DNA of 64,000 bases from an uncultured Elusimicrobia bacterium (GTDB taxonomy: Bacteria; Elusimicrobiota; Elusimicrobia; Elusimicrobiales; Elusimicrobiaceae). The notes beneath the pieces were generated by a model. That model searched no databases. It worked only from the letters and a program-made list of their open reading frames with translations, and was not told where the DNA came from. This document shows positions 20,690 through 51,305 of this stretch, piece by piece. Positions within the stretch are counted from its first letter, which is position 1, and each line of letters begins with the position of its first letter. Location of the stretch: NCBI GenBank assembly GCA_947306425.1, contig CAMZGO010000006.1, forward strand, positions 1-64,000, in the 5' to 3' direction. A program made the position numbers and the translations under genes.

Positions 20690-20718
20690 TTGAAAATACC
20701 TTTAAAAATTGTTATTAT
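20690..20718 (+). promoter_or_regulatory. Promoter of structured RNA copy A
   Basis: TTGAAA (20690-20695) and TATTAT (20713-20718) are separated by 17 bp, putting the RNA 5' end near 20725. It lies within the gap after the DUF2207 gene, so the RNA can be transcribed by itself. Confidence 0.6.
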
Positions 20719-20724
20719 AAAAAT

Positions 20725-20967
20725 AAAGGAGATTTTTTATGTAGGGTTAAGGGCCCTAAAAAAATTTATCTGTTTTTGGAACCGTATGTAGAATACGGAA
20801 GGCATTTGAGAAATCAAATGCGTCTTTAGTCGTCCAAAACAGTCGTGTCTTTGAATATATAAGTATCCGACGGGAGAAAGTATATTTAATTCTGCCGCCT
20901 TTATGGCGGCAGATACGGCTGTCGTGCTTGGGCTTGACTAAAGACCTCAAATATGACAGCCGTTTTT
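20725..20967 (+). ncRNA. Structured RNA copy A (unrecognised family)
   Basis: Visible pairings in order: 5' hairpin TAGGG/CCCTA (20742-20758); P1 CTGTTTTTGGA (20770-20780) with TCCAAAACAG (20833-20842), closing a domain with two hairpins, P2 (20782-20798) and P3 (20802-20821, GAAA loop); P4 (20851-20859 with 20881-20889); P5 CTGCCGCC/GGCGGCAG (20892-20912); and the terminator ACGGCTGTC/GACAGCCGT (20915-20963) with T5. The strand GTCTTTAGTC (20822-20831) exactly complements GACTAAAGAC (20936-20945) in the terminator loop, giving a pseudoknot. The same plan recurs at 30014 and 50026 with different sequence in the stems. The ATG at 20953 overlaps the terminator and is not taken as a start. Confidence 0.85.
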
Positions 20968-20994: not shown

Positions 20995-21399
20995 ATGACA
21001 AACGATATTAAAGAACAAATAAAAGAGTTCAGCGATCTTATAAAAAGATATCCCCATATAGAAGAATTTTATGTATACCGTGCTCATTTATATGAAAAAA
21101 CCAGACAATATCAAAAAGCCATGGAAGATTATAAGAAAATATTACCCGCATATTATCTTAATTTTGATATAGCAGGTATTTGCGAAAAAAATGATTTACT
21201 CAAAGAAGCGGAAATATACTATACCAAAGCAATAAACGAAAATAAAGAGAGTATTTATAAATATATCAACAGAATACATTTTTACATGCGAATAAAGGAA
21301 ATAGATAAAGCAATATTAGATTGCAAAACCGTATTAGAAATATCCCCGGAAAAAGAAACTGTTGCAACCCTTAAAAGAATATTAACCGAAGAAATATAA
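20995..21399 (+). CDS. Small TPR protein, partner of RNA copy A
   Basis: A 134-aa soluble helical protein with about three tetratricopeptide-like units (FYVYRAHLYEKTRQYQKAME, EAEIYYTKAINENKE, IDKAILDCKTVLEISPEKET). No signal peptide. I start it at the ATG 20995, which has an AGAGG site at 20983-20987; an earlier in-frame ATG at 20953 lies inside the RNA terminator. It is a clear paralogue of the protein at 30260-30667, well over half identical by eye. Both genes follow a copy of the same RNA a few bases after its terminator. The function is unknown; RNA binding or regulation by the RNA is inference. Confidence 0.85.
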   Translation: MTNDIKEQIKEFSDLIKRYPHIEEFYVYRAHLYEKTRQYQKAMEDYKKILPAYYLNFDIAGICEKNDLLKEAEIYYTKAINENKESIYKYINRIHFYMRIKEIDKAILDCKTVLEISPEKETVATLKRILTEEI

Positions 21400-30013: not shown

Positions 30014-30245
30014 AGAGGTTATTTTATAATACGTAGGGCTTATACCCCTAATAATAATTAAATGTTTTTGGAATCCGAAAGGATATATTTTGCTTTTATA
30101 AGCAAAGGACGAATTAACCGAAAACGTCGTATAGGCATAAAGTACCCGGCAGGGGAAATATGCTAATGTCAATTATCTTTAAGATATTGGCTACGGCTGT
30201 TTGTTTTAGGTATTAATTCGTCCTTAAAATAGATCAGCCGTTTTT
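30014..30245 (+). ncRNA. Structured RNA copy B (unrecognised family)
   Basis: Same plan as copy A. 5' hairpin TAGGG/CCCTA (30034-30050). P1 GTTTTTGG (30064-30071) pairs with CCGAAAAC (30118-30125). P2 is ATCC-GAAA-GGAT (30073-30084) and P3 TTTGCTT/AAGCAAA (30089-30106). P4 GCATA/TATGC (30135-30163) has a loop resembling copy A (AAGTACCCGGCAGGGGAAA against AAGTATCCGACGGGAGAAA). P5 spans 30170-30189. The terminator is ACGGCTG/CAGCCGT (30193-30241) with T5. The pseudoknot pairs AAGGACGAATTAA (30105-30117) with TTAATTCGTCCTT (30213-30225): 13 perfect base pairs unlike those of A or C. Confidence 0.85.
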
Positions 30246-30259
30246 ATTTGGGAGGAAAT

Positions 30260-30667
30260 ATGCTAAAAGATATCAAAGAAAAAATAAAAGAATTTAATAA
30301 ACTCATAAAACAATACCCCTATGTAAAAGAACTTTATATTTACAGAGCTGCATTATATGAAAAAAGCCTGCAATATAAAAAGGCCGTTGACGATTACAAA
30401 ATGATATTACCGGAGCAATATATGTGTTTTGATATGGCGGGTATTTGTGAAAGGAACGGCTTAAACGAAGCGGCAGAAGAATTTTATACTAAAGCAATAA
30501 ACGAAAACAAAAAAGATATTCAAAATTATATCTGCAGAATCTGTTTTTACATACGTATCAAAGATATTGAAAAGGCAATTTCCGATTGCAAAACCATATT
30601 AGAACTTTCCCCTAAAAATGAAACTGCTTTAACCCTTAAAAGAATATTAACAGGTAAATTAGATTAA
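30260..30667 (+). CDS. Small TPR protein, partner of RNA copy B
   Basis: A 135-aa TPR-like helical protein, paralogue of 20995-21399, with the same length and units (LYIYRAALYEKSLQYKKAVD, EEFYTKAINENKKD, EKAISDCKTILELSPKNETA). I start it at the ATG 30260, with a strong GGAGGA at 30251-30256, only five bases after the T-tract of the RNA terminator. That spacing means readthrough of the terminator would directly deliver the ribosome site, so cis control by the RNA is possible. No signal peptide or catalytic motif is seen. Confidence 0.86.
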   Translation: MLKDIKEKIKEFNKLIKQYPYVKELYIYRAALYEKSLQYKKAVDDYKMILPEQYMCFDMAGICERNGLNEAAEEFYTKAINENKKDIQNYICRICFYIRIKDIEKAISDCKTILELSPKNETALTLKRILTGKLD

Positions 30668-50025: not shown

Positions 50026-50286
50026 AAGAAGTTAATTTATGGAGGAATAGAAGTTCACCCTATAACCGGGTTTAAAATAATTTGATACTGTTTTTGGAAT
50101 CCTATATTAGTATAGGAGTTGCTTTGTAAAACAAAGTTCCATGAGAGTCCAAAAACAGCTGTTACAGGCAAAAAGATAAGAAGGTCGCTCCTGATTATCT
50201 TTTTGCCGAGTGTTCGTTTTTTTAACGAACCACGGCTGTTTTATGTTTTGAAACTCTCATGGACAAGGCATAAAAAGCCGTTTTTT
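50026..50286 (+). ncRNA. Structured RNA copy C (unrecognised family)
   Basis: This copy has the most regular stems. P1 CTGTTTTTGGA (50088-50098) pairs perfectly with TCCAAAAACAG (50148-50158). P2 is TCCTATA/TATAGGA (50100-50117) and P3 CTTTGT/ACAAAG (50122-50136). P4 GGCAAAAAGATAA/TTATCTTTTTGCC (50167-50207) is 13 perfect pairs, and P5 is GTTCGTT/AACGAAC (50212-50230). The terminator stem (50232-50280) is followed by T6. The pseudoknot pairs TCCATGAGAGT (50138-50148) with ACTCTCATGGA (50253-50263). No TPR gene follows; the next CDS starts 98 nt downstream. The rest of the 49899-50384 gap holds only terminator and promoter signals. Confidence 0.85.
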
Positions 50287-50384: not shown

Positions 50385-51294
50385 ATGTTAAAGAAAAAAA
50401 TATATAAATTACACGAGCAGCTAATCAAAAAATATTTAATATTTACAAAAGGAAAAGATAGGGCCTATTCTTTTTCTTATTTCAACATAAATATAAGGGA
50501 AGGAAGAAATATTTATTATAAAAACAAATTTTTGTTTAAAGCCCAAAAAATTGAAAATTTATTACAGAAAGTTAATTCTAAAGACGGGGAAATATATATT
50601 TTGGGTTCTGGGCCTTCAGTAAAAACTCAAAATTTACAAATTTTACAGAATAAAAATGTAATTTTCCTTAACGGTTCCATAAATCTTGCTTCTAAATATC
50701 AAATAAAACCTTTTTGTTATATCATATTAGATGCAACTTTTATTATTAACAAACAGGACATTATTAAACAAATTCCGTCAAATACACCTTTGGTTTTATC
50801 CCTTAGTGCCGTGAATGCTATGTATACTTTTTGCCCCAAAATATTACAAAAACATCCTGTGTGTTTAATTTTAAATCCTTTAGAACCCTATAAAGGAACA
50901 AAGAAAAAAATTTCTGATTTGGAAAATGAATATTTTTATATTCCTCCGCAGAAAGATACTGCTTTCAGTTACTATCCTGATAAGGGGTTATTTGACGGGG
51001 GAACAGTAATGTCAAATGCCATACAAATAGCATTTTATTTGAATTTTAGGAAAATATTTTTATTAGGTTTGGATATAGGCAATGCTGCCCAACCCCGTTT
51101 TTACGAAAATGATAAGAATAAATTAAAAAGCGGACTTTTGAAAGATTATGAAACAAAAATTTTGCCGTTTATGAAAACAACAAAAACTTTAGCAGAAATG
51201 CAAAATAGGAAAATTTATAATTGTTCACCGATAACTAAACTTCCTTATGAAGTTATACCTTATTTTGATTTTAAAATTATTGAGGAGAAAAACA

Positions 51295-51305
<11 letters not shown>
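50385..51305 (+). CDS. DUF115/WaaZ-like glycan biosynthesis protein
   Basis: A 306-aa cytoplasmic protein. The N-terminal nucleotide-binding-like stretch IYILGSGPSVKTQNL and the later GGTVMSNAIQIAFYLNF with KIFLLGLDIG resemble the DUF115 / LPS-core WaaZ-like group, whose members modify surface glycans or flagellins with sugars. Assignment is by pattern only. The gene overlaps the next glycosyltransferase gene by 11 nt, which supports a glycan role. AAGGAG precedes the start. Confidence 0.65.

Follow-up and report, generated by a model that had tools for sequence, protein, structure and literature searches.

A candidate transcription attenuator with a terminator-loop pseudoknot in gut Elusimicrobiota

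The window analysed here, 64,000 nucleotides of contig CAMZGO010000006.1 from an uncultured Elusimicrobia bacterium, holds copies A, B and C of an RNA element that ends in an intrinsic terminator. The sequence-only reading had placed the partner strand of a long-range helix in the terminator loop of each copy. It left open whether this pairing helps or hinders termination, and so forms a switch, or simply locks the 3′ end of a stable RNA. What, then, does the long-range helix do to the terminator?

Layout of the element

In copy A, on the forward strand like all the features below, GUCUUUAGUCG at positions 20822–20832 (PK1) pairs with UGACUAAAGAC at 20935–20945 (PK2), forming an 11-bp long-range helix whose complementarity is complete save for one terminal G–U pair. 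PK2 lies within the loop of the terminator (20915–20967), a hairpin with arms ACGGCUGUCGUGCUUGGG (20915–20932) and CUCAAAUAUGACAGCCGU (20946–20963) and then U5 at 20963–20967. The same layout, with different words, is present in copy B (30062–30245; PK1 30105–30117, PK2 30213–30225; 13 bp, word AAGGACGAAUUAA) and in copy C (50088–50285; PK1 50138–50148, PK2 50253–50263; 11 bp, word UCCAUGAGAGU), which confirms the terminator loop as the long-range partner in each copy. The TPR genes attributed to copies A and B are also in place: a small TPR protein gene follows copy A (20995–21399; likely start 20995, Shine–Dalgarno sequence AAGAGGU), and another, ending at 30667, follows copy B. Downstream of copy C is an MptE-like (PF01973) gene (50385–51305).

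The 236-nt RNA of copy A folds with a z-score of −7.9 relative to shuffled sequences. Upstream, TGTTATTAT (20710–20718) is a putative extended −10 promoter element, assigned in copy A from its sequence; the motif occurs in 74 of 142 upstream regions, compared with 16 occurrences within 100 nt past the terminator. The 5′ hairpin P1 (20742–20758; UAGGGUU/GGCCCUA) is taken from the MFE fold, is preceded by AAGGAG…AUG-UAG, and recurs in other copies with altered stem sequence. Helix P2 (20770–20842), identified by covariation, joins CUGUUUUUGG (20770–20779) to UCCAAAACAG (20833–20842) and encloses hairpin P3 (20782–20798; 6/6 pairs changed on both sides), hairpin P4 (20802–20821; 7/7) and PK1, which directly adjoins the P2 3′ strand. 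The 5′ strand of helix P5, CAGUCGU (20840–20846), shares its CAG with P2 and is followed by the P6 arm (20853–20888) and hairpin P7 (20891–20913; 8/8 pairs changed on both sides). The strand ACGGCUG (20915–20921) serves two helices, completing P5 as its 3′ strand and forming the 5′ base of the terminator stem. P5 competes directly with the terminator and was absent from the sequence-only reading.

The 5′ leader of many copies, at 20727–20744 of the window in copy A, carries a Shine–Dalgarno-like AAGGAG and then an AUG with an immediate stop. These start–stop forms are AUG-UAG or AUG-UAA, at times AUG-NNN-GGN-UAA, and are present in some copies and not in others.

An RNA family with copy-specific pseudoknots

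The element is approximately 250 letters long, and a DNA search located it, as many diverged copies, throughout the 1.44-Mb genome to which the window belongs (the home genome). A covariance model, R1, built from 29 extracted copies, found 48 copies there, of which L083 is doubtful, and misses at least one further variant (L211). Matches to R1 are present in 72 of 248 genomes of the phylum Elusimicrobiota and fall in two genera of the home family, g1 and g6, and in one distant family, f12, where several genera have them; those with names are gut, rumen and termite Elusimicrobiota and one Endomicrobium sp. contig. Copy number between species ranges from 1 to at least 41. No family of Rfam 15 scored above its gathering cutoff over the element in cmscan; skipping-rope RNA (RF02924) had no match in the home genome at E ≤ 10 and none in cmscan. 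Known Rfam families, including skipping-rope RNA, were rejected as its identity for want of any model match, and a viral origin was rejected because none of three viral pattern matches passes the covariance model. No paper on this RNA was found in the literature searched, mostly outside subscription journals. The RNA family is undescribed, absent from Rfam 15 and abundant in gut Elusimicrobiota.

In the first set, all 29 copies have an unbroken PK helix of 8–13 bp at both places, with a sequence private to each copy. The mean own-copy helix score is 24.1, compared with 13.9 ± 2.4 for cross-copy pairings, and own-copy pairing is the best in both its row and its column for 28 of the 29. On inspection, about 46 of the 48 home copies retain a PK of at least 8 bp at its usual position; the PK of L072 is broken in part and L083 is doubtful. 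When 73 elements are aligned, the structure comprising P2, P3, P4, PK, P6, P7 and the terminator has 92.2% paired cells and a covariation of 0.554, compared with 0.201 for shuffled and at most 0.121 for slid controls, the alignment having been fitted to the nested helices of the model, towards which the nested-helix counts are biased. PK is outside the model, and all nine of its counted pairs changed on both sides, most with five or six pair types. P2, P3, P4, PK, P6, P7 and the upper terminator all covary. The distance from PK1 to the P2 3′ strand is 0–2 nt across copies, a spacing that would correspond to H-type pseudoknot geometry.

The apical loop of P6 is self-complementary in most copies, over a hexamer or a tetramer (UAAUUA, UUAUAA, UCAUGA, UUGCAA, UUCGAA, UCUAGA, AGCU, GAUC). 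A hexamer palindrome is present in 23 of 30 distinct P6 loops of at least 6 nt, where 2.7 are expected, and in none of the loops of P3, P4 and P7. The loop covaries as a palindrome, as in a symmetric kissing-loop dimer, and its switching between palindromes suggests, at the level of sequence, that the RNA may form dimers; the same argument has been used for symmetric kissing loops in OLE and GOLLD (PMC12286853). A minority, non-palindromic P6 class, to which copy A belongs (20853–20888), has GAGUA…ACCGACGGGU…GAAAG in place of the palindromic loop, resembles a sarcin–ricin (loop E) internal loop, and is also found in L009, L010, L012, L014, L077 and L079.

Some PK words recur. Identical 10-nt words are shared by L045/L048, L053/L129, L117/L156, L037/L100/L127 and L055/L133, elements that are only 59–77% identical and mostly precede different genes; exact recurrence amounts to 7 pairs, with 0.09 expected. 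The words were rejected as flank or insertion-site matches, for which there is no excess (28 versus 26.8 expected). A strong reading of the recurrent words as addresses acting in trans was rejected as well: close backbones differ by paired substitutions only, for which slow compensatory change with exchange of cargo suffices. Recombinant-looking elements with mismatched PK strands were also observed (L071 and L072 in the home genome, L150, L192 and L043); in MAGs such elements, L150, L192 and L043 among them, may be assembly errors.

One strand with two partners

The ACGGCUG strand pairs at six or more of its seven positions with P5 in 128 of 141 elements and with the terminator arm in all 141. 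An A at its last position (position 7) is compensated in 9/9 cases in P5 and in 6/9 in the terminator, and in element L084 the shared block is replaced whole by GCGAUUAU, with both partners altered to match. P5 is the weaker partner because it often has G–U where the terminator has G–C. By their base pairing, P5 and the terminator are mutually exclusive on this strand, giving the element the conserved exclusive terminator and antiterminator of a transcription attenuator. PK is nested with P5 and crosses both P2 and the terminator.

Folding models address the order in which these helices form. In MFE structures of transcripts ending at PK2, before the terminator can form, 84% of home copies have P5 and 93% have PK, and in ensembles computed at growing length P5 and PK dominate until the last bases of the terminator 3′ arm emerge. 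Full-length nested models favour the terminator in 66% of home copies and 88% of those in relatives, and in the home genome the median excess of the energy of P5 plus PK over that of the terminator is just 2.8 kcal/mol. In models with PK1 replaced by its complement, terminator probability was 0.26 instead of 0.04 at 14 nt beyond PK2 and 0.91 instead of 0.63 in the full-length transcript. The full-length terminator is clearly favoured in relatives (modelled probability 0.84), and read-through could therefore be low there. The nested energy models are unable to score P2 with PK, or the terminator with PK, jointly, and PK and the terminator might therefore coexist. Of the two effects left open earlier, hindrance is the most likely, with PK delaying the terminator in the models.

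Probable transcription attenuation and its alternatives

The first long open reading frame is co-oriented with the element in 130 of 139 cases, and a longer convergent one is present in 3. Co-oriented genes lie approximately 14–270 nt downstream, some copies having gaps of 180–270 nt; in the home genome the start codon follows U5 by a median of 38 nt, so that a separate promoter would hardly fit. A co-oriented gene directly downstream, without space for a promoter of its own, is the arrangement of a transcription attenuator. Across gut Elusimicrobiota the RNA stands before dozens of surface-type genes. In the home genome the elements precede 25 type IV pilin genes, every complete or near-complete member (11 in total) of one small TPR family, and single genes for SNase nucleases, LicD, glycosyltransferase 2, MptE-like, PLD-like and subtilase-like proteins. 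In relatives, the RNA also precedes outer-membrane, sulfatase, glycosyltransferase 8 and type III methylase genes. The downstream genes have no metabolic pathway in common, which weighs against an attenuator, and they point to no particular metabolite as ligand.

We consider it probable that the element is a cis-acting transcription attenuator in which the pseudoknot supports the antiterminator and opposes termination. All the helices, their mutual exclusion and the genomic position have a comparative basis; the folding order and the anti-terminating effect of PK are modelled. RNA started at the promoter just upstream would fold its 5′ part into P2, with P3 and P4, and into the P6/P7 domain closed by P5. 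Once out of RNA polymerase, PK2 would pair with PK1, stacking beside P2 and closing over P5. P5 would then hold the ACGGCUG that the terminator needs, while the paired PK2 would keep the terminator loop open. Were P5 and PK to persist until polymerase clears the U-tract, the downstream gene would be transcribed; were they unformed or displaced, the terminator would zip up and transcription would stop. The element would in this way regulate expression, the balance being set by a signal or simply by chance, and candidate triggers are a protein, a small molecule, RNA dimerization via P6 and unregulated, probabilistic read-through.

The proposal of a switch thus gains from the two exclusive partners, the near-universal co-oriented genes and the models, and the 3′-end lock is the weaker of the two earlier ideas. 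As an explanation in its own right, it is unlikely: an independently transcribed, stable small RNA in which pseudoknot and terminator coexist to lock the 3′ end, acting in trans or as a dimer, with a gene downstream that is incidental or has its own promoter. The promoter-to-terminator unit of approximately 240 nt, its very stable fold and the palindromic P6 loop, which suggests intermolecular contact as in OLE, GOLLD and ROOL (PMC12286853), are consistent with such an RNA, but 130 of 139 co-oriented genes and a 38-nt median gap are unexpected for RNAs acting in trans, as is, in a simple 3′ end, a conserved helix P5 that destroys the base of its own terminator. It is decidedly improbable that the pseudoknot helps termination, with PK2–PK1 pairing pre-organizing the terminator loop or freeing ACGGCUG, so that the OFF state would be the folded RNA. 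With a terminator loop that hardly exceeds PK2 in length and an upper stem that covaries, both may be made to coexist, and a complete P2 would weaken P5 through the CAG common to them; against this, PK is nested with P5 rather than with the terminator, and its disruption favours the terminator in the models. A mobile single-gene cassette marked by the RNA, its fold serving recombination or mobility instead of expression, would account for the wide range of copy number, the unrelated accessory cargo, the recurrence of PK words in identical form on diverged backbones whose cargo differs and the chimeric elements, but is very improbable, as no recombinase or flanking repeat was found, PK words are not enriched in their own flanks, the terminator and U-tract would be superfluous and no viral contig match passes the model.

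The candidate attenuator can be compared with known RNAs. In purine and SAM riboswitches, one strand takes part in two exclusive helices ahead of an intrinsic terminator, with the gene directly downstream; in the present element, by contrast, what completes the antiterminator is a pseudoknot with the terminator loop, specific to each copy. The pseudoknot of skipping-rope RNA also involves a terminator hairpin loop. That RNA (RF02924) is likewise a pseudoknotted bacterial RNA in Rfam (PMC7779021), but its 80-position model does not match the element. In the HMP-PP (thiS motif) riboswitch, an alternative P1 helix and a pseudoknot disrupt an overlapping intrinsic terminator, the loop of which is unusually conserved (PMC6478431). 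However, that riboswitch is approximately 66 nt long, has a loop of conserved sequence and serves a single pathway (PMC6478431), whereas the element is approximately 250 nt long, with a hypervariable but self-matched loop and many unrelated genes. The palindrome switching of P6 resembles that of the symmetric kissing loops of OLE, GOLLD and ROOL (in OLE L9.3, GGCC, GAUC and AGCU; PMC12286853); those are larger RNAs, and the palindromic loop of the element sits in an attenuator-like leader with no Rfam match.

Possible control of a large pilin family

The home genome has 108 genes with the type IV pilin N-terminal signal (PF07963), and relatives in the family have 12–113, compared with 3–11 in the sister family. 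In 17 of 20 sampled pilin genes of the home genome that lack the RNA, a poly-T tract of 14–16 nt fills the −35/−10 spacer (examples are L197, L198, L200–L204, L206–L210 and L212–L216), an anatomy found in phase-variable promoters. This spacer is present in none of 48 RNA elements, and its strict pattern has 16 matches in the home genome and none in nine relatives. Such promoters hint at a possible stochastic role for the RNA as well. A SAM riboswitch is located near one element (L080, 1254–1377).

Tentatively, the family could be a device for controlling a large surface-protein repertoire, with dozens of attenuators per genome that have a palindromic, dimer-forming loop in common but each a private PK word, in which RNA–RNA contact or stochastic folding, and not a metabolite, would pick the pilin, TPR and envelope genes that are read through. 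The copy-specific pseudoknot in the terminator loop, together with the exclusive antiterminator, provides about 150 natural matched variants with which the relation of pseudoknot to termination can be tested, and the element suggests that a very large pilin family, of 108 genes in a 1.44-Mb genome, may be under a further level of control.
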